A stretch of 64,000 nucleotides of DNA from contig CALUVT010000002.1 of assembly GCA_944324345.1 (NCBI GenBank), positions 310,001 to 374,000 on the forward strand, in the 5' to 3' direction. Origin of the DNA: Candidatus Gastranaerophilales bacterium (lineage in GTDB: Bacteria > Cyanobacteriota > Vampirovibrionia > Gastranaerophilales > Gastranaerophilaceae). Positions 738 to 62,854 of this stretch are shown piece after piece; the first letter of the stretch is position 1; every line of letters begins with the position of its first letter. The notes below the pieces were generated by a model that saw nothing but the letters and a program-made list of their open reading frames with translations, was not told the DNA's origin and made no database searches. Made by a program: the position numbers and the translations under genes.

Positions 738-1472
738 TTATGGGAGACATTCCCAGTAAGTTTTGGAAGAATCAGTTTCGCACTTATTTGCTACTGCATA
801 TTTAGAGCAAGTAAAACCCTGATAGTGTTCTCTTTGACTTGTAAGACATCCACCAAAAGCAGTGTATGGGACCAAATTATTATTTTTATCAATACTAAAC
901 GAAAACAAATCATATCCTAAACGATTGGGGCCTTTGGCCGGGCCATTTATATCAATGTGATAACCAGAACCAGCCCAAGGGCCCATAAATATAAGTATAC
1001 CACTGCTTGTAATTATTGATTTTGTAGTTAGTGAATCTGGGTCGATATGGGCATAACTACCCTTTACAAAAGAATCATACGCTTTTGGATTTCCACCTGC
1101 ACATTTCAGATAATATATATTGCACATTCTTGAATTTGAGATATATTTTATGAGCCTGTCCAAATGATTTGAATATCTGTCCTTTCCTGGTATTGAGCTA
1201 TCCTGCAAATCATTATACATAGAAGGATAATCCTGAGCCATAGCCATATTTGCGTTTGCGAGAACTGAATAAGCAGTTTTAAACTGGGTTTCTAAAACCT
1301 TTTTTTGATATTTGGCAATCAAGGCCGGAATAGTTATTGCAGCAATAACACCAATTATACCAAGGGTAATCAAAACTTCTCCAAGAGTAAATGCATCTCT
1401 TTTGCATATCACATCTTTACTATAAAAAGAAGAAGCTTCTAAAACGCCCCCCCCCCGAAAATACCACTGCAA
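738..1472 (-). CDS. Prepilin-type N-terminal cleavage/methylation protein, poly-G tract at 5' end (out of phase with its best start)
   Basis: A type IV pilin-like (pseudopilin) protein, normally cleaved by the prepilin peptidase and inserted in the inner membrane through its N-terminal helix. The motif AFTLGEVLITLGIIGVIAA puts Ala at -1, Phe at +1 and Glu at +5, followed by a hydrophobic helix and a Cys-rich C-terminal domain ending in YWECLP. The given start (1472) has no ribosome site. The well-placed start is ATG at 1507-1505, six bases after AAGGAG (1519-1514), but from there translation enters ten G bases (1456-1447) and stops at TAG (1441-1439) after 22 codons. One more G would join that start to this frame, giving a 39-residue leader. 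I therefore read it as a phase-OFF gene. The alternatives are a sequencing error in the homopolymer or a true frameshift. Its 5' end lies just behind the 6S-like RNA. Confidence 0.85.
   Translation of the reverse strand: MQWYFRGGGVLEASSFYSKDVICKRDAFTLGEVLITLGIIGVIAAITIPALIAKYQKKVLETQFKTAYSVLANANMAMAQDYPSMYNDLQDSSIPGKDRYSNHLDRLIKYISNSRMCNIYYLKCAGGNPKAYDSFVKGSYAHIDPDSLTTKSIITSSGILIFMGPWAGSGYHIDINGPAKGPNRLGYDLFSFSIDKNNNLVPYTAFGGCLTSQREHYQGFTCSKYAVANKCETDSSKTYWECLP
1447..1456 (-). repeat. 10-base poly-G tract (coding strand) near the start of a prepilin gene
   Basis: A run of ten C on the plus strand, read as ten G by the gene. It sits 17 codons after the RBS-supported ATG at 1507. With 10 G that frame runs straight into TAG; with 11 (or 8) G it continues into the prepilin; with 12 it stops about 13 codons later. 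It is one of only two such long G/C runs I saw in the window; the other is at 22044-22054. Confidence 0.9.
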
Positions 1473-1530
1473 GTGGATTTACGATTATTAATAAATAAAC
1501 TCTTCATATTCAGCTCCTTTTCTATTCTTT

Positions 1531-13586: not shown

Positions 13587-13817
13587 ATGGCAGGTATAGC
13601 AAGTTTATTGTCTCAAATATTTGTACCCCAATCAACACAAGTAACTGTTCCGGTAAAAAATAGCAGTAATCCGTATAGTAACAACCCTTTTGTTAACTAT
13701 AATGGCAATAGCCTAAACAATTACGCAAAAAATTCACCTGTTAGAGGAGGGTATTTTGCAGGGTATTATAATGGTAAACAAAATATAGTCGGACAACGTT
13801 TATTTATTGAGGTTTAA
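13587..13817 (+). CDS. Small Asn/Tyr/Gly-rich hypothetical protein, 76 aa
   Basis: Not recognised. The N-terminus MAGIASLLSQIFVPQ is mildly hydrophobic; the rest is rich in Asn, Ser, Tyr and Gly (NPYSNNPFVNYNGNS, GGYFAGYYNG), as in disordered or surface-exposed segments, and lacks Cys. ATG 13587 follows GAGG at acceptable spacing, and a TATAAT stands about 55 bases upstream (13524-13529). It ends at 13817, and the prepilin promoter begins 12 bases later, so the two lie side by side on the same strand. A link to the pilus-like proteins is inference from position only. Confidence 0.6.
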   Translation: MAGIASLLSQIFVPQSTQVTVPVKNSSNPYSNNPFVNYNGNSLNNYAKNSPVRGGYFAGYYNGKQNIVGQRLFIEV

Positions 13818-13828
13818 GCCTCGGACAA

Positions 13829-13857
13829 TTGACTTTTCTACTATAAAAGGTTATAAT
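13829..13857 (+). promoter_or_regulatory. Consensus sigma70 promoter of the prepilin pair
   Basis: TTGACT (13829-13834), a 17-base spacer and TATAAT (13852-13857). It lies 30 bases before the prepilin ATG at 13888. Confidence 0.8.
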
Positions 13858-13887
13858 GGATATAGTACGTTAGGGAAGTTTTTATAT

Positions 13888-14628
13888 ATGAAATGTGAGG
13901 CTTTTTTAGGATTTACCATCTCAGAATTACTGGTAGCAATGTCTATAATTGGGATAGTTGTTGCAATAACTGTGCCTACTGTTGTTTCAAAGTACCAACA
14001 GAAATCTATGCTTGCATTGTTGAAAAAGAATTATGTTGAACTTCAAGAAAATCTCCTTGTCTTAAGCACTGAAAATAACAACAAAAGTTTTTATAAATCA
14101 ATTCTAAGCAAACAAGGCTCAAAAAGTGTTGAAGAAACTGCAGGAGAATTTATTAAAGGGTTTTATACTATAACTAGTGACTGCGAGGATACAGCTCAAC
14201 CATGTTTTGCAGATTCTTATCGTACAATAAATTCCTCAACAAGAACTAACTTTAGTTGTTCAGACGGATATAATGTATTGTTAAAAGGTGGTGCTGCAAT
14301 GTGTATAATACCTGCGGATTCTGCAGTAGAAGCTGATGAAGATGCCGGAATTGAAGCAAAAGATGCAATACCTGCACATATATTTATAGATGTTAACGGA
14401 ATAGACAGGCCTAATATTGGTGGAAGAGATCTGTTTTCATTTTATGTATATGACTTTTACACTATAGATGATGGGAAAACTGATAACTATATAGGACCGG
14501 AAAAAATTAAAGACGGAACAGCAGAAGAAGCAAGAGAAACATTATTCAATTCTTCATGCCTAACATCTTTTGACGGTACAGGTTGTTTTGGGAAAATCCT
14601 TAATGACAACTGGAAAATGAATTACTAA
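13888..14628 (+). CDS. Prepilin-type N-terminal cleavage/methylation protein
   Basis: Type IV pilin-like protein for export through the pilus/type II-like system. From ATG 13888 the leader is only eight residues (MKCEAFLG), then FTISELLVAMSIIGIVVAI with Glu at +5 and Gly at -1, the cleavage motif, followed by TVPTVVSKYQQK. The C-terminal domain has paired cysteines (SDCEDTAQPC, SSCLTSFDGTGCFG), a DVNGIDRPNIGGRDLFSFYV segment seen in its paralogues, and ends NDNWKMNY. A longer reading from 13807 has no support and would overlap the promoter. AGGGAAG precedes the ATG. A second prepilin gene follows after 18 bases. Family sure, role unknown. Confidence 0.88.
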   Translation: MKCEAFLGFTISELLVAMSIIGIVVAITVPTVVSKYQQKSMLALLKKNYVELQENLLVLSTENNNKSFYKSILSKQGSKSVEETAGEFIKGFYTITSDCEDTAQPCFADSYRTINSSTRTNFSCSDGYNVLLKGGAAMCIIPADSAVEADEDAGIEAKDAIPAHIFIDVNGIDRPNIGGRDLFSFYVYDFYTIDDGKTDNYIGPEKIKDGTAEEARETLFNSSCLTSFDGTGCFGKILNDNWKMNY

Positions 14629-14646: not shown

Positions 14647-15366
14647 ATGAATAAAAAGTTTGCATTTACACTAACAGAAATGTTAATAACATTAAGTATA
14701 ATAGGCGTTGTTTCTGCAATGACAGTTCCAACATTGATGAACAAGTATCAAAAAGAGGCTCAGGCTGTTCAAATTAGAAAGGCATCTTTAGAATTTGCTA
14801 ATGCTGTTGATTTATATTTAACAGAGAAGGGAAAAACAACATTAGCAGGGACAGACATCGCAGACAATCTGAGTGATTTTATTGAATCGTATTTCAAAAT
14901 AACAAAAACTTGCGGAGAAGATGACACATCATGCTTTGCATCAAGCTACCGTTCTATAGATAACACAAAGACATCAAGCGTAAATTGCAGTGGGGATTAT
15001 TACACACTGGCCAATTCTGCTTCGATATGCGTTAATGCTTATAAACCCTTAGATATTAGTAGCGGCTCCATACAAGTAATTAAAGCAAATGCAGCAAGGC
15101 CATACCTAAAAATTGTAATGGACACAAATGGAGCAGAAAAACCTAACATTGGAGGAAGAGATATCTTTACATTTTATATAACTAAAAAAGGTGAGTTAAC
15201 CGGAACTGAACCATATAGTATGGAGTTTGTTCATTCAAACCCTTGTGCATGTGAAGTGGGTAAAGATTGTGTATGTGAAGATGTAGATCCAGAATGCAAG
15301 AATTCTCCACTTGGAGACTACTGTTTTGACCTTCTTGCAAATAACAATTGGGTAATGAACTACTAG
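14647..15366 (+). CDS. Prepilin-type N-terminal cleavage/methylation protein, Cys-rich
   Basis: Second gene of the prepilin pair. The leader is MNKKFA, then FTLTEMLITLSIIGVVSAM with Glu +5 and Ala at -1. The mature domain shares DTNGAEKPNIGGRDIFTFYI and the NNWVMNY end with the upstream gene. Near the C-terminus there is an unusual Cys cluster, PCACEVGKDCVCEDVDPECK, suggesting disulfides or metal binding outside the inner membrane. ATG 14647 follows AAAAGGGG at good spacing and is 18 bases after the previous stop, so the two are co-transcribed. An 18-base palindrome follows the stop. Confidence 0.88.
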   Translation: MNKKFAFTLTEMLITLSIIGVVSAMTVPTLMNKYQKEAQAVQIRKASLEFANAVDLYLTEKGKTTLAGTDIADNLSDFIESYFKITKTCGEDDTSCFASSYRSIDNTKTSSVNCSGDYYTLANSASICVNAYKPLDISSGSIQVIKANAARPYLKIVMDTNGAEKPNIGGRDIFTFYITKKGELTGTEPYSMEFVHSNPCACEVGKDCVCEDVDPECKNSPLGDYCFDLLANNNWVMNY

Positions 15367-21186: not shown

Positions 21187-22083
21187 CTAAAATTTTATAG
21201 GATATTTATCAGGGATTTTCCATTTATTCTTTTCTATAGCAAGGCCACAGTCGTACCCGCTACCGCCCTCTTTGCAGCTACCAGGGTTTCCACTAAACAT
21301 ATTTTCCAAAGGGCGGCAATAAGCTCCCCAATACCCAGCAATTGTCCCTTGACGGAGTCCATAATGCTCCCCTTTGGGACACAAACCTGATGTTGACCAA
21401 CCACCTGTTTTATAAGTGTAATTAAACAAGGTAAAATAGAAAACATCTTTCCCCATTATAGAATCGCCTTTATCACCATTAATATCAACGATAATATTAA
21501 CATACTTTATCGGGGTACAAAAAAGATTTCCGCTCGGGGTACAATCCGATATACGAGGAGCAATATGAATTATTTTATCATTATACCTAAAAGAATTGGA
21601 AGCATAATTACAACTTGCAGTAACATCCTTGTTTCCACTAACATTTTTCCAACATCCTTGTCCAGCAAAACAATTATACCTTGTGCACTGTGTATAATTT
21701 TGGGATAGGTATGGAAAAATATAACGCTTCGCAAAATCCCCACCTTTTCGCCAATCATAAGAATAATCCCAATCTCTAAAGTCTCCGTTTACAAGTTCTG
21801 AGCGTTTTATAGCCTCAGTTAATTCTGCATATGTTTTCTTTAGTGCAATAATAGTTACATATTCATTGTATTTACTTATCAACGATGGAATTGTTAAAGC
21901 TGCAACCACTCCAACTATTCCAAGAGTGATCAGCACCTCTGCTAACGTAAACCCAAATCCTCTTTTGTGATATTTTATATCACTATTATATCTATTTTTA
22001 CATTTTTTGCAAGAGTTAAATCGTTGAAGGAAGCCTAGAAACGCCCCCCCCCCCGAAATTACGGGACAATAAACCTTTTTCAT
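21187..22083 (-). CDS. Prepilin-type N-terminal cleavage/methylation protein with 11-G tract (phase ON)
   Basis: Pilin-like protein, 298 aa. ATG 22083 follows TTGAGG with good spacing. Ten codons later the frame passes through 11 G bases (SGGGAF), then a long leader of 44 residues ends at HKRGFG, followed by FTLAEVLITLGIVGVVAAL with Glu +5. The mature domain has many Cys (TQCTRYNCFAGQGC, SDCTPSGNLFC) and a DINGDKGDSIMGKDVFYFTLF segment as in its relatives; it ends NKWKIPDKYPIKF. With one G fewer the frame hits TAG within three codons of the tract. It lies 90 bases downstream of the FtsH-like gene on the same strand and may be read from it. Confidence 0.88.
   Translation of the reverse strand: MKKVYCPVISGGGAFLGFLQRFNSCKKCKNRYNSDIKYHKRGFGFTLAEVLITLGIVGVVAALTIPSLISKYNEYVTIIALKKTYAELTEAIKRSELVNGDFRDWDYSYDWRKGGDFAKRYIFPYLSQNYTQCTRYNCFAGQGCWKNVSGNKDVTASCNYASNSFRYNDKIIHIAPRISDCTPSGNLFCTPIKYVNIIVDINGDKGDSIMGKDVFYFTLFNYTYKTGGWSTSGLCPKGEHYGLRQGTIAGYWGAYCRPLENMFSGNPGSCKEGGSGYDCGLAIEKNKWKIPDKYPIKF
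22044..22054 (-). repeat. 11-base poly-G tract (coding strand) near the start of a prepilin gene
   Basis: Eleven C on the plus strand. It is flanked by TTTCG on the 5' side and CGTTTCTAG-GCTTC on the 3' side, nearly the same flanks as the tract at 1447-1456 (TTTCG...CGTTTTAGAAGCTTC). In frame with 11 G, TAG with 10, TAA about ten codons on with 12. Confidence 0.9.
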
Positions 22084-22172
22084 AAACTTACCTCAATCTG
22101 CAAGGAATTTTATCAAATTTAAACATGCCTGTCAACTAATTAAGTAAGTTATGGAAAACAAGAAAAATTCAT

Positions 22173-25160
22173 TTAATTTTCTTTTCTTACAGCTATTCCT
22201 TTTTTAGTTGCTTCCATAATCTTGACAATAGTTTCATCACACAACTTCAGCTCTCTTTGTTTTTCAGGGCTTTGGTTCTGCTTCCAGGCATTCAGAGTCG
22301 TTCTAAAATCATCCCCACTCAATATACACTCACCCGTACCTACCAAAGGGGCATATTTCTTAACAAAAGCAGTGTTAAAGTCAGCATATATCTCGGTAAT
22401 TAAATCAGAAGCGATTTTAGCATTATTAATTATTACGCGAATATCTTTCTCTACCAGTGATTTTAAATTGTCAGACAGATCATCATCCTGATTTATTACC
22501 ATTTTACCGGTATTTGGGCCCATTCCTAATAATTTCACCATAATATCAGTATAATTTCTTACCTGTTCAATATCTCCGCTTATCCCAAATGAACCATCCA
22601 TACCGAAAAATAATTTTTCAGCAGAACTTCCGCCAAAGGTACAAACTAACAGAGCAAAAAGATTTTCAAATGAGAACTTTCTGTTTTTATCACTTTCATG
22701 GAACATGGCTCCACCATAATTCCCTCTTGGATCCAATGTAATAAAATTAACCCTATCCGGTATATGCCAAGGCTTACCAAGAGTTTTTGCAATATTATTC
22801 ATAACCTCCAAATTGGTAGCATGCCCGCACTCATGAGAAGCCGTAACAGATTTTTCATGTTCTTCTATTTGAGATAAAGCAGGTCTACCAGTTGTTAGCT
22901 GTAAATATGCTTCTATAAAATCTCCTTTAGATATAGACTTATGTCCTCTCTCTAATGCGACTGAACCCGCTTTTTTAACAAATTTTTTCAGATATATAAA
23001 AGGCAGACCCTCTGTCATACTTGCAGCAGTCTGTATAGCACTGTCCTGTGCTTCTTTATTTCCTGAAAGCTTCAATTTCAAATCCTTTAAATTTTGCCTA
23101 ATAATTTGAGCACGTTCAATCGAATTAGCTGCAGGTGAAGAAACTTCTATACTATCTGTAAATTTGAACGATTTCATTGTAGAAGCACCTATAAGGTCAG
23201 GATTAGAAACCGAACCTACTACCAAAATATTAAGTCCTTCTTTATCTGCCTTTTCCATTTCTCTAAGTAACTGTGCCATAGCCTTTTGGTGATAAATAGA
23301 AATCATTTCACCTACTGAAAAATATTCAAAATTTTCTATATAAAGCACAGCTGACTTATTCGGATTAGCTTCCGCCTGAGTCCTTACCTGAGAAAAAAGT
23401 TTTTTAATTGATGCTTCTGGACTAAGAACACCATTTCCAAAAATATCAACTTCTTTTGTACCAAAATCCATTGTATTAATTTCTATATAAGGAACTTTTG
23501 CTTCTCCTGCAATAGCTTTTGCGGTAAATTTTCTTCCCCCACCAGGGAAACCATCTTGAGAATATATAATTACTCCCTTGGTTCCCATAGTATTAGACTT
23601 GATTTGTCTTACTATTGATGCAGCTTCCTTTTTAGTAGCACTTTTGCCAACAAAATCTTTAAGAGTTTTTTCCGTATCAAATGTCATAAACACGGAACTT
23701 TCATTATCATTATTCTTTGTTAAATTTGTCGCCTCTTTCAAATAGTTTGCAACATCAGTTTCATTAATCTCTTTTTTGTTTGTATAGTAGCTTTCAATCT
23801 TTTTCATTAAACTTATTGTTTTTAAGGGGAAAATTCCATCCATTTGAGCAGAAGTTGTTACAACTTTTTCTATTGCTTTTTTAGAAAAAGGTTTTTTAAT
23901 ATCACTTGTCAGGATTTTATTTTCCTTAAAAAATTTCAGCATTTGAGCAGTCGATAGAGTCGGAATAGAAATCTCTTCAAATCCTGAAAATATCTGACTT
24001 GTTGAATTCATAGAATAATAATTATCTTTTGATGAATATAACAACAACCTGATATTTGCCGGAGGAACAAGAAAAATTGGAAGTAAATCTGCCGAAATAA
24101 CAACCTCATTTGAGGTAGAACTCTTTGCACTATCCAACAGCATCATTTGCACTGGATTAACAATAACAATATGCTTTTTAGATTTATCTTTGCTTAATTT
24201 ATTTAGAACACGTAAAAAATATTCACCGGTAACATGCTCATTAAATTCTGTCACTTGAAAATTATCTTGATTATCATTTTCTATAACCTTACGTAACGTA
24301 TTTACAAAAGGTTGTGGAGGTTCTTTTGAGGAGTCATAAGTAATATAAACATTATTTCCAAGTTTTATTTTTTTTAATACATCCTTTGCTTTCGTCTCAT
24401 AATCGCTGAATTGTAGACGCTCATCCAAAGGAATCTTATTTAACATTGCAAAATCATTAATATTAAAAAAGAAATTATCAACTAAAGTAGAAGTTATGTC
24501 GTCTGGACTATTTATAGCACCTGAAAGGAATGTGTCAGGATTTATTTTTGAATTTTCGGCCCTTATTCCCCATATAGCATCTACTAAGTCATCCGATAAG
24601 GTTACATCATCTTTTTTTACCGATTTTTCAGATTTGTGCTCTGCAAGGACTTTATTTATGTCCTTTGAAAAACTTGCAACAGCTTTCTTTAAATTTTTTC
24701 TTAAATTTTTATCCGAAAAAATATCAGGAGATGCTTCATTAGAAATTAGGTCTACCAAATAAGGATGTTTCTCAAGAGAATTAAACTCCACACTTCCAGA
24801 ATCCAAATCTTTAACGAAATTATTTAATTCATTTAGAGAATATTTAATAACATGCAAGGTTGTAACCTTGTCAAATCCTGAATTAAAAGCTTCTGATTGC
24901 AAATTCGATATAAGTTTCTTTGTTGGAGTATCGGCATAATACATTATGTTTTCCAACTTTGTCATCTTTGAACTGTCTGTTTTATTTGGAGACGAAGACT
25001 TTCCTAAAAAAGGAATAAAATAATTTAGATGCATACCGATTGGAACAGTTGAAGACAAATTATTTTCAAAGCTGTTTCTATGTTTATCTGTATTGTTATT
25101 TAAATAATTTTTAAAATACTGAACCCTGTCAACACAAGTACCAATTTTCTGAATCATCAT
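22173..25160 (-). CDS. FtsH-like protein: degenerate AAA+ domain with intact M41 zinc-peptidase motif
   Basis: 995 aa. N-terminal 330 residues are unrecognised. Middle part aligns by eye to FtsH AAA+: GVIIYSQDGFPGGGRKFTAK then AIAGEAKVPYIEIN (about 530-560), but Walker A GPPGTGKT has become GFPGGGRK (lysine and threonine displaced), Walker B IDEID is IENFE (near 605), and the RPGRFDR arginine fingers are absent (ASTMKSFKFTDSIEV). The peptidase part keeps HECGH at 776-780 and the zinc Asp863 in ISGDIEQV, after FGGSSAEKLFFG. No membrane helix is evident, unlike FtsH. It is a putative ATP-independent, cytosolic metallopeptidase. ATG 25160 follows AAGGAG; an upstream reading to 25253 lacks support. 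The phase-variable prepilin gene follows, 90 bases on. Confidence 0.82.
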   Translation of the reverse strand: MMIQKIGTCVDRVQYFKNYLNNNTDKHRNSFENNLSSTVPIGMHLNYFIPFLGKSSSPNKTDSSKMTKLENIMYYADTPTKKLISNLQSEAFNSGFDKVTTLHVIKYSLNELNNFVKDLDSGSVEFNSLEKHPYLVDLISNEASPDIFSDKNLRKNLKKAVASFSKDINKVLAEHKSEKSVKKDDVTLSDDLVDAIWGIRAENSKINPDTFLSGAINSPDDITSTLVDNFFFNINDFAMLNKIPLDERLQFSDYETKAKDVLKKIKLGNNVYITYDSSKEPPQPFVNTLRKVIENDNQDNFQVTEFNEHVTGEYFLRVLNKLSKDKSKKHIVIVNPVQMMLLDSAKSSTSNEVVISADLLPIFLVPPANIRLLLYSSKDNYYSMNSTSQIFSGFEEISIPTLSTAQMLKFFKENKILTSDIKKPFSKKAIEKVVTTSAQMDGIFPLKTISLMKKIESYYTNKKEINETDVANYLKEATNLTKNNDNESSVFMTFDTEKTLKDFVGKSATKKEAASIVRQIKSNTMGTKGVIIYSQDGFPGGGRKFTAKAIAGEAKVPYIEINTMDFGTKEVDIFGNGVLSPEASIKKLFSQVRTQAEANPNKSAVLYIENFEYFSVGEMISIYHQKAMAQLLREMEKADKEGLNILVVGSVSNPDLIGASTMKSFKFTDSIEVSSPAANSIERAQIIRQNLKDLKLKLSGNKEAQDSAIQTAASMTEGLPFIYLKKFVKKAGSVALERGHKSISKGDFIEAYLQLTTGRPALSQIEEHEKSVTASHECGHATNLEVMNNIAKTLGKPWHIPDRVNFITLDPRGNYGGAMFHESDKNRKFSFENLFALLVCTFGGSSAEKLFFGMDGSFGISGDIEQVRNYTDIMVKLLGMGPNTGKMVINQDDDLSDNLKSLVEKDIRVIINNAKIASDLITEIYADFNTAFVKKYAPLVGTGECILSGDDFRTTLNAWKQNQSPEKQRELKLCDETIVKIMEATKKGIAVRKEN

Positions 25161-25234
25161 ACTTCTCCTTGAGAAATATGAAACACTAAAATAAAAATTT
25201 TTGCTACTTAGTAATAAAAATTTACAATAACTAA

Positions 25235-25486
25235 TTAATGCAAATTTTTCCAATAATTCGGGTCAGATACTGCTTTGTATGCACAACCAATTCCGCTATA
25301 TCCGCTTGTAGAAATTTTTGAACAATAACCGTCAGTTGCTAAATATCGTGTTCCTTCCATCCCCATTGGGAGTAGCTTCCCATCATCCATTATCTGAAAA
25401 GTAAATAAATCTGAGCGGTAATGGTTCAAAAAAGGCCTGATAATTCCATACCTCTCAACCCCACCCCAAAAGGAAGTTACACAAGA
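25235..25486 (-). pseudogene. C-terminal remnant of a prepilin-type protein
   Basis: An open frame from 25486 reads FWGGVERYGIIRPFLNHYRS then DLFTFQIMDDGKLLPMGMEG and YCSKISTSGYSGIGCAYK and ends DPNYWKNLH. This is the C-terminal end typical of the window's prepilins (compare GYDLFSFSIDKNNNLVP and the W near the end). There is no prepilin helix and no ATG with a ribosome site in the frame (only a TTG at 25429). I read it as a 5'-truncated gene, perhaps cut when neighbouring sequence recombined. It ends 60 bases upstream of tRNA-Phe on the same strand. Confidence 0.65.
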
Positions 25487-60480: not shown

Positions 60481-61149
60481 TTAGTAGTCCATTTTCCATC
60501 CGTCTGCGACAATTTTAGAAAAACAACCCCGTCCATAGGCTTCATTGGCATCTCCAGTCAAGCATTGCTCAAATTGTGACTCAATAGCATCATATACATA
60601 ACTATCATAGTGCTCAGCAACTTTCCCATCACTATAAAGTTGAATATAAAACATATCTCTGCCAACAATATTGGGAGGAGCAGCCCCATTAATATCTACA
60701 TGCAAATCCATATACCCGTGAAATCCATCAGACTGATAACTAAAAGCATTATCTCTAACTGATATAGAGGCTCCACTAGCAAGTGAAACTGCAGCTAGTG
60801 GCTCATTAGCTTCAAATGCTGTTCCATTTATATATTTATAACTTTCTGCGAAGCAAGGAGTTAAAGACGTATCACAATCTTGAACTACGTTAAAATAGGT
60901 ATTTAAAAACTCTTTTGAAGCGTTTGGGTTATATGAAGTAAATTTCCCCTCATCAAGGGATACCAGATTATTATCATTTATAGCTCTTTTCGCAGCTTGC
61001 GAAAGTTCCGTATATACCTTCTTAAGCTGAGTTACATACACTGTTTTTTGATGGTTGGAAATAAGTGTAGGCATTGTCATTGCTGCAACCACACCTATTA
61101 TACCTAAAGTCACCAAAACTTCTGCTAAAGTAAATCCAAATTTATTCAT
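60481..61149 (-). CDS. Prepilin-type N-terminal cleavage/methylation protein (paralogue A)
   Basis: 222 aa with a five-residue leader (MNKFG), then FTLAEVLVTLGIIGVVAAM with Glu +5 and Gly at -1. It is nearly identical to the gene at 62135 in the first 65 residues (SNHQKTVYVTQLKKVYTELS) and in the last 80 (NIVGRDMFYIQLYSDGKVAE, GRGCFSKIVADGWKMDY). The middle differs (SLDEGKFTSYNPNASKEF here). ATG 61149 follows GGTTGCGGGG. ribF is transcribed away from it, next door. High confidence in the family; role in pili or a secretion pseudopilus unknown. Confidence 0.9.
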   Translation of the reverse strand: MNKFGFTLAEVLVTLGIIGVVAAMTMPTLISNHQKTVYVTQLKKVYTELSQAAKRAINDNNLVSLDEGKFTSYNPNASKEFLNTYFNVVQDCDTSLTPCFAESYKYINGTAFEANEPLAAVSLASGASISVRDNAFSYQSDGFHGYMDLHVDINGAAPPNIVGRDMFYIQLYSDGKVAEHYDSYVYDAIESQFEQCLTGDANEAYGRGCFSKIVADGWKMDY

Positions 61150-61259: not shown

Positions 61260-62138
61260 ATGCAAATAATCACAGAGCTATCTAAAAATCAAAACTTATC
61301 TATTGCACTTGGTTTTTTTGACGGAGTCCATCTGGGGCACAAAACAGTTATAAAAAGTGCCGTTGAATATGCTCATCAAAATAATTGTAAATCAGCTGTC
61401 ATAACTTTTAAAGATCATCCGAATTGTTTTTTTTATGGGAAAAGCCCCAAATACATATTACCTAAAAAAGTAAAAGAACTAAAAATTGAGGAACTTGGAA
61501 TAGATTTCCTATATGAATTGGATTTTGAGAGTATATCAGGTCTTACTGCATCCGAGTATTTAAAAGATATACTGATAAAATATTTCAGTCCTTGTGCTAT
61601 TTCAACAGGTTGGAATCACAATTTTGGGTATAAAAAAAGCGGGAATGCAGAATTTTTAAGAAATAATTCTAATAAATTCGGATACAAATATTTTGAACTT
61701 CCACCTCAAAAAATAAATAATGAAATAATAAGCAGTTCTGTTATAAGAAAAAATCTTTCACAAGGGAATATAGAAAAAGCAAATTTGATGTTAGGTTATA
61801 AATTCTCTACATCAGGCGAAGTTATAAAAGGCAAACAAATTGGCAGAACAATAGGTTTCAAAACAGCAAATCTAATTTACCCTGATGAACTAATAGAATT
61901 ACCTCACGGAGTTTATTCAGTTCAAACAAATTACGGCAAAGGTATAGCAAATTTCGGAACCAGGCCAACTGTAAAGGGAGAGGGAACAATTCTTGAAACA
62001 CATATACTGGATTTTGACAAAAATATTTATGGCGAAAAACTTTTTGTTGAGTTTAACAAAATGATACGCGTCGAGAAAAAATTTAATTCCCTCGACGCAC
62101 TAAAAAATCAAATCCAAAAAGATATAAAATACATTTAA
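61260..62138 (+). CDS. ribF: Bifunctional riboflavin kinase / FAD synthetase
   Basis: Makes FMN and FAD. N-terminal adenylyltransferase: IALGFFDGVHLGHKTVIKSA (HxGH motif) and YFSPCAISTGWNHNFGYKKS; kinase: GKQIGRTIGFKTANLIYP, LPHGVYSVQTNYGKGIANFG and TRPTV with ILETHILDFDKNIYGE. 292 aa, close to the family's 310. No ribosome site precedes the ATG; a TATAAT ends six bases before it. It overlaps the convergent prepilin gene by 4 bases. High confidence. Confidence 0.94.
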   Translation: MQIITELSKNQNLSIALGFFDGVHLGHKTVIKSAVEYAHQNNCKSAVITFKDHPNCFFYGKSPKYILPKKVKELKIEELGIDFLYELDFESISGLTASEYLKDILIKYFSPCAISTGWNHNFGYKKSGNAEFLRNNSNKFGYKYFELPPQKINNEIISSSVIRKNLSQGNIEKANLMLGYKFSTSGEVIKGKQIGRTIGFKTANLIYPDELIELPHGVYSVQTNYGKGIANFGTRPTVKGEGTILETHILDFDKNIYGEKLFVEFNKMIRVEKKFNSLDALKNQIQKDIKYI

Positions 62139-62854
62139 TAATCCATTTTCCAACCGTCTGCAACTATTTTAGAAAAACAACCTCGTCCATAGGAGTTATA
62201 TTCACCTGTCAAACATTGTTCAAATTGCTGCTCAATAGTGTCATATAAATAAATGTCGTAGTGCTCAGCAACTTTCCCATCACTATAAAGTTGAATATAA
62301 AACATATCTCTACCAACAATATTGGGAGGAGCAGCACCATTGATATCAATATTCATATTCATATATCCATGATCCCCATTGTCTCGGTAACTAAACCAAT
62401 TCTCAAAAACTGATATAGAAGCACCGCTAGCAAGTGAAACTGCAGCTTGTGGTTCTGAGACTACAAAATCAGTTCCATTTATATATTTATAACTTTCTGC
62501 GAAACAAGGAGTTAAAGTTGTACCACAATCTTGAGCGACATTAAAATACGTCTTTAAAAAGTTACTTGAAGCACCTGCCACATTAAAATTAAATCTTGTT
62601 TCATCAAGAGAAACTGCGTTACTATCATTAATTGCACGCTTCGCCGCTTGCGAAAGTTCTGTATATACCTTCTTGAGCTGGGTAACATAAACTGTTTTTT
62701 GATGATTTGATATAAGTGTCGGCATTGTCATTGCTGCAACTACACCTATTATACCCAAGGTAACTAAAACTTCTGCCAAAGTAAAAGCATTAAACTTACT
62801 CTGAAACATAATATCCGAAAACATCTTAAAAATAGGGAAAATAAATTTTTTCAT
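62135..62854 (-). CDS. Prepilin-type N-terminal cleavage/methylation protein (paralogue B)
   Basis: 239 aa with a 23-residue leader (MKKFIFPIFKMFSDIMFQ then SKFNA), Ala at -1 and FTLAEVLVTLGIIGVVAAM. It shares the start and end with the gene at 60481 and differs in the middle (VSLDETRFNFNVAGASSNFL, FENWFSYRDNGDHGYMNMNI). That pattern fits a tandem duplication with gene conversion at both ends, or selection on the exposed middle. ATG 62854 follows GAGGAGAACTT. It overlaps ribF by 4 bases at its end. Confidence 0.9.
   Translation of the reverse strand: MKKFIFPIFKMFSDIMFQSKFNAFTLAEVLVTLGIIGVVAAMTMPTLISNHQKTVYVTQLKKVYTELSQAAKRAINDSNAVSLDETRFNFNVAGASSNFLKTYFNVAQDCGTTLTPCFAESYKYINGTDFVVSEPQAAVSLASGASISVFENWFSYRDNGDHGYMNMNIDINGAAPPNIVGRDMFYIQLYSDGKVAEHYDIYLYDTIEQQFEQCLTGEYNSYGRGCFSKIVADGWKMDY

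Follow-up and report, generated by a model that had tools for sequence, protein, structure and literature searches.

The prepilin gene at 21,187 to 22,083 on the minus strand of the window (the whole stretch of 64,000 nucleotides analysed, part of a 1.76-Mb Candidatus Gastranaerophilales genome) carries, near its start, an 11-G tract whose length sets the reading frame. From its sequence, the locus is probably one switch in a large, default-OFF repertoire of pilin genes subject to slipped-strand phase variation, a reading to which we assign a probability of roughly 80%. It draws support from 47 paralogues with an open ON frame, from near-identical copies one G apart, and from a species with other tract lengths, and phase variation had already been proposed in the first-pass annotation. 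That annotation had missed two features, namely, that the two tract-bearing copies in the window belong to a genome-wide repertoire in which G10 and a closed frame are the rule and that tract orientation tracks replication and not the gene. The features are listed in Table 1.

Table 1. Features of the window prepilin gene, its leader, and the second tract-bearing copy (window positions), and locations of the five genes in the ON state
Feature	Position	Strand	Basis or remark
Prepilin ORF, 298 aa, open	21187..22083	(-)	Translation, Pfam N_methyl, TIGR02532, AlphaFold model
G11 tract, ON length	22044..22054	(-)	Direct reading; codons 10-14
ATG start codon	22081..22083	(-)	GAGG Shine-Dalgarno at 22091-22094
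Conserved tract core TTTC-G11-CGTTTCTAGGCTT	22031..22058	(-)	Core shared by sense and antisense copies
P1 promoter-like site, TTGACA-17-TAAAAT, 11/12 matches	22107..22135	(-)	Upstream of start
P2 promoter-like site in leader, TTGCAA-16-TATAAT	21985..22012	(-)	
Perfect inverted repeat GTGATAT-AAA-ATATCAC, directly after P2	21967..21983	(-)	
Second tract-bearing prepilin gene, frame closed at present length	738..1507	(-)	Frame analysis
G10 tract of second copy (C10 on +)	1447..1456	(-)	OFF; ON at 11
Five ON genes	window 22044; C2:476.8 kb; C2:101 kb; C1:211.9 kb; C2:443.1 kb		

On the minus strand, the GAGG and the ATG are followed by nine codons and then by TCG, the G of which is the first base of the 11-G run, and the frame continues into a prepilin whose translation includes GFTLAEVLITLGIVGVVAAL. 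This start and path through the tract had been proposed earlier, as had the effects of a one-base change, and both stood up to direct reading and frame computation: tract lengths of 8, 11, and 14 G leave the gene open, and lengths of 10 and 12 close it. With 10 G, the frame ends ...GGGRF*, the TAG being the third codon past the tract, and with 12 G it ends ...GGGGVSRLPSTI* at a TAA about nine codons on, where about ten had been estimated. A run of at least eight G thus lies in the 5' coding region, and a change of one unit toggles between full-length and truncated products, as in homopolymer phase-variable genes. In the other copy, near 1.45 kb, the frame from the ATG at 1507 stops directly after the tract, and the two copies are therefore in opposite states, as previously described. 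Runs of at least eight G occurred at these two places in the window (seven overlapping matches versus 0.10 expected), and because both also belong to the genome-wide tract family described below, chance does not account for them. An in-frame start with a Shine-Dalgarno sequence 3' of the tract was sought in the window gene, and none was found; ATA replaces the ATG present in paralogues. Just upstream on the same strand, at 22173-25253, is a gene for an FtsH-like AAA plus peptidase M41 protein of 1,026 aa. The window also holds prepilin genes with ordinary starts and no G tract, at 13807-14628 and 14647-15366 on the plus strand and at 60481-61149 and 62135-62854 on the minus strand.

By its sequence, the window product is a type IV prepilin. 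It scored 22.1 bits against PF07963 N_methyl (cut-off, 21.2) and 18.3 against the NCBIfam model TIGR02532 (cut-off, 16.3), and it has the N-terminal G/A-F-T-L-x-E motif followed by a hydrophobic helix. Its unusually long leader, of 44 residues, ends in KRGFG and would be cut by prepilin peptidase to give a mature pilin starting FTLAEVLITLG; the C terminus showed a weak DUF6613 match. An AlphaFold model of the mature part, built from an alignment of 40 homologues (pLDDT, 85; pTM, 0.84), was pilin-like, with a long N-terminal helix at residues 4 to 56 and a strand-rich domain. The best match among solved structures was the FimA pilin, a weak one (E = 0.077), and the globular domain was without a close solved relative.

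Genome-wide, there were 51 runs of at least seven G, and 48 of these had in common the core TTC-G10/11-C(A/G)NT..AGC, with the family consensus TTTTC-G10-CAATTCTNAGCTT. Forty-seven of the 48 core tracts were located just upstream of a prepilin motif, and one was inside an Acyl_transf_3 gene; the other three runs were unrelated, two of them at contig ends. The genome had 68 N_methyl prepilin matches, and for 44 of them a tract lay no more than 250 bases away. The 47 tract-bearing prepilin genes all had an upstream start and, with it, a Shine-Dalgarno-like sequence, and in every one the ON frame was open from tract to pilin, with a stop in 93 of the 94 alternative frames. The tract length joining start and pilin was 11 G in 44 genes. 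At the lengths present, 42 genes were one G short, 5 were ON, and none was one G too long; the chance of at least 42 one-short genes with random frames is 2e-15 when copies are treated as independent, and since the copies are related, such binomial values are indicative only. Several combinations of upstream and downstream phase, on both coding strands, all summed to an ON length of 11, which implies more than one duplicated gene; as the combinations vary, it is the relation between length and frame that has been kept and not the tract's own frame. Two simpler accounts were rejected: that G10 is merely a fixed mutational length with random frames is excluded by the distribution of frame states, and that the flank is conserved as coding sequence only is excluded by the same core in antisense copies.

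The Acyl_transf_3 gene (L059:1254-2375; G000 C3, ~52 kb) is another surface-type gene with the prepilin-tract motif; it stands in a glycosyltransferase neighbourhood and carries an in-frame C10 at about codon 77 that reads through (ON). The end of contig C1 (L046 position 68, minus strand) and the start of C3 (L056 position 68, plus strand) have in common a stretch ending in T9-G9 (TGTTTCC...GGTCGACTTTTTTTTTGGGGGGGGG); it has the look of an artefact of the assembly or the library.

Tract orientation was compared with GC skew over 20-kb stretches, because the skew of small loci is confounded by gene direction. The skew changed sign between 20 and 60 kb on C1 and between 265 and 275 kb on C2, and its sign was unchanged in several stretches with most coding on the opposite strand. 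In all 48 cases the G strand of the tract was the strand of positive skew, which we take as the leading strand on the basis of skew, with dnaA (C1:659 kb) not at a skew switch. Across nine genomes, tract strand switched in 7 of 204 adjacent same-contig tract pairs and no more than twice in any genome, which is the expectation for two replichore borders. Head-on genes carried the inverted tract (6/6 in this genome and 14/14 of those checked in relatives); the whole motif is inverted in them, leaving poly-C on the coding strand, and the genes with coding-strand poly-C were exactly the head-on set. The tract core was identical in the sense and antisense (head-on) classes, and the G10 tracts were nearly always followed by C, not T. 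With the G strand locked to the strand of positive skew and inverted in head-on genes, the switch appears to act at DNA replication and not on mRNA. Replication slippage predicts such an orientation and mRNA-level mechanisms do not, because the slippage-type mutability of G-run hotspots is strongly dependent on the leading strand (PMC12344412). Those GnT hotspots concern T-to-G substitution in laboratory strains (PMC12344412), whereas the present case is a fixed orientation over a natural set of G10 tracts.

Promoter-like sites were enriched on both sides of the tract. Upstream of the family start codons, P1-like sites scored at least 10 in 24 of 47 genes (3.7 expected), and internal P2-like sites did so in 21 of 36 (2.2 expected); P2-like sites together with TATAAT were over-represented in the leaders, with 23 observed and 5.4 expected. 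Most leaders have a promoter-like site, and many also have GTGAT..ATCAC at the expected transcription start. The genome has 15 occurrences of the inverted-repeat pattern, located at prepilin genes that bear a tract, and the repeat after P2 may be an operator. Most leaders in the family also contain an internal ATG, and in many paralogues the internal promoter and ATG past the tract might permit expression despite an OFF tract.

The motif was found in all 12 other genus members of a first set of relatives, with 2 to 89 pattern matches each, and as a single match in one of the eight genomes from other families. A family-wide sample showed it to be common in the genus itself and in a second genus (G078 and G105) and sporadic or absent elsewhere. 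Relatives have as many as about 80 copies of the motif. Congeners were usually at G10, one short of ON, and in 11 genomes sampled regardless of exact length, 133 copies were one G short, 20 were one too long, and 17 were ON. In one relative, G002, the lengths ranged from 8 to 14 and were mostly 11 to 14, so that the default was mostly one G too many; ON, too-long, and too-short copies were all present, with the ON frame open in all those scored. Tract length differed between near-identical copies: tandem copies in another relative, G001 (L092), had flanks 99% identical and tracts of G10 and G11, and 7 of 31 close pairs differed in length.

In some relatives (L197, L151, L193, and L119-L138), upward of 100 codons of leader separated tract from pilin, and the ON frame was still open through them; these long leaders are seemingly translated dispersed repeats, such as CHCEGVKRPSQSQN and LPLIGKVRMGFKQ. 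The closest orthologue of the window gene (L341; G005 C45:12306-13196; 63% identical) is in the ON state; its tract of 11 bases is broken by a T (G8-T-G2), which should make it less slip-prone, and the allele is possibly locked ON. A scan of viral contigs gave 13 motif matches, and no prepilin was linked to any of them. Two viral contigs (L335 at ~7022 and ~7645; L330 at ~3465 and ~4589) carried short ORFs built as RBS-ATG-~9 codons-TTTC-G9 to G11; all three frames then reached a stop within about 20 codons, and no prepilin followed.

Several other explanations were weighed. The pilin might be produced from the internal P2 and internal ATG at any tract length, the upstream part being a regulatory upstream ORF. 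The enrichment of P2-like sites fits this, as does the ordinary short prepilin leader that the internal ATG gives in most copies; we nevertheless consider it unlikely, since it leaves unexplained why the frame from tract to internal ATG is open in all copies, and the window gene has lost the internal ATG; of the five ON genes, four are without one in frame. Programmed frameshifting, in which a G10 tract is the one that functions and every gene yields some in-frame product through slippage of RNA polymerase or through -1 ribosomal frameshifting, would suit a default that is uniform and directional, with one G missing in all 42 OFF copies and in most relatives. It would call for a slippery run in a fixed mRNA orientation and a fixed direction of shift. 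The orientation found here tracks the replichore and not the gene, so that head-on mRNAs carry a C tract, and the G002 offset of mostly one too many would need the opposite shift. Some copies are exactly ON, including the G005 orthologue with its interrupted tract, and frameshifting is thus quite unlikely.

Also to be weighed is the possibility that the tract serves chiefly as a DNA site, for a protein related to replication or recombination, and has a secondary effect on frame. The core common to sense and antisense copies and the orientation locked to replication would both be expected of such a site, but a pure DNA site predicts neither the offset at one below ON nor an open frame, which is kept in all copies and even across relatives' leaders that exceed 100 codons; the tracts are, moreover, almost only at prepilin starts. 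We regard this as very unlikely. Errors of homopolymer length in the assemblies, mostly metagenome bins in which long G runs are error-prone, could mimic the one-short state through a systematic undercall of one base. This is highly improbable, given that G9 to G14 were all called in the same collection, that one assembly contains the adjacent G10 and G11 copies with otherwise near-identical flanks, and that the pattern recurs in many independent short-read bins.

The proposed slipped-strand phase variation can be set beside systems already known. In Neisseria, slippage in G or C tracts controls pilus-related genes such as pilC and pgt; there the tract controls an adhesin or a modifying enzyme, and the pilin itself varies by gene conversion, whereas here dozens of pilin subunit genes each have their own tract. 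Neisseria pilE/pilS likewise combines a G-rich element (G4) adjoining the pilin gene with a large pool of variant pilins. The likeness lies in the G-rich element beside the pilin gene and in the many variants; the difference is that the present element is a single G run and the genes are complete with their own starts, whereas pilS loci are silent partial cassettes. Four close G runs, as in the pilE-type G-quadruplex, were not seen, the core containing one run of 10 to 11 G and no others. The tracts also resemble those of Campylobacter jejuni contingency genes, in which G runs in the 5' coding region, 8 to 12 long, set surface genes ON or OFF by frame (PMC6321876, PMC8355987). Poly-G switching in C. 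jejuni occurs at 1e-4 to 1.6e-3 per division, with a bias toward insertion at G8 and deletion at G11 or longer, which holds tracts near 9 to 10 (PMC8355987). Campylobacter tracts are 53% G9 and 26% G10, and in a large C. jejuni isolate set the ON fraction was near neutral drift (PMC6321876). In C. jejuni the tracts occur in a variety of genes and are spread over lengths of 9 and 10, whereas here they belong to one family with shared flanks, of which about 90% are one G short and hence OFF.

The uniformity at G10 (42-43 of 46-47 tracts) is far greater than in Campylobacter and is not what freely drifting switches would give in the absence of further selection or mutational bias. By analogy, a bias like that in C. 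jejuni could hold the present tracts at 10; such a bias leaves unexplained the arrangement of the flanks, in which 10 is OFF and 11 is ON. From that arrangement we infer that selection has favoured OFF as the default, a single slip away from ON, and that the ON length lies on the side of lower stability. The mostly reversed offset in G002 shows that details of the default vary between species.

Under slipped-strand phase variation, the leading-strand G tract at about codon 10 would gain or lose one G through mispairing during replication. G10, the usual length, would shut the frame just past the tract, and G11 would link the upstream start, with its own promoter, Shine-Dalgarno sequence, and ATG, to the prepilin, from which prepilin peptidase would take off the long leader. 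We infer switching in living cells together with its rate, leader processing by the peptidase, and a role in surface variation. The repertoire being poised one slip below ON, each pilin would be mostly OFF and few would be ON at once; the window gene is ON in the present assembly. A more elaborate version, which we consider doubtful, is that the tract, together with its conserved flanks, is a dedicated switch module coupled to replication. Its core would be recognised as DNA and kept on the leading strand by inversion when head-on, with dozens of pilins one slip from ON and possibly with slippage controlled, or the length kept at 10, by a protein.

The slippage mechanism belongs to a class already known, and no account of phase variation in Gastranaerophilales or of poly-G tracts locked in orientation turned up in the literature searched; what looks new is the scale reached within a single family, a frame set to be OFF by default, and an orientation that is locked to replication and kept by inverting the motif. 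Such pilin genes will be labelled frameshifted pseudogenes in annotation. If the proposed switch is real, the strict leading-strand placement through inversion would be natural evidence that replication direction matters for G-tract switching, and the setting at one below ON would offer a testable case in which selection acts on the default of a stochastic switch. With tract length setting the frame and most genes one G short, cells could vary their surface through random replication slips. With about 47 pilins able to switch in a genome of this size, the contingency repertoire of these little-studied, abundant gut commensals, non-photosynthetic relatives of cyanobacteria, would then be among the larger ones made up of a single family.
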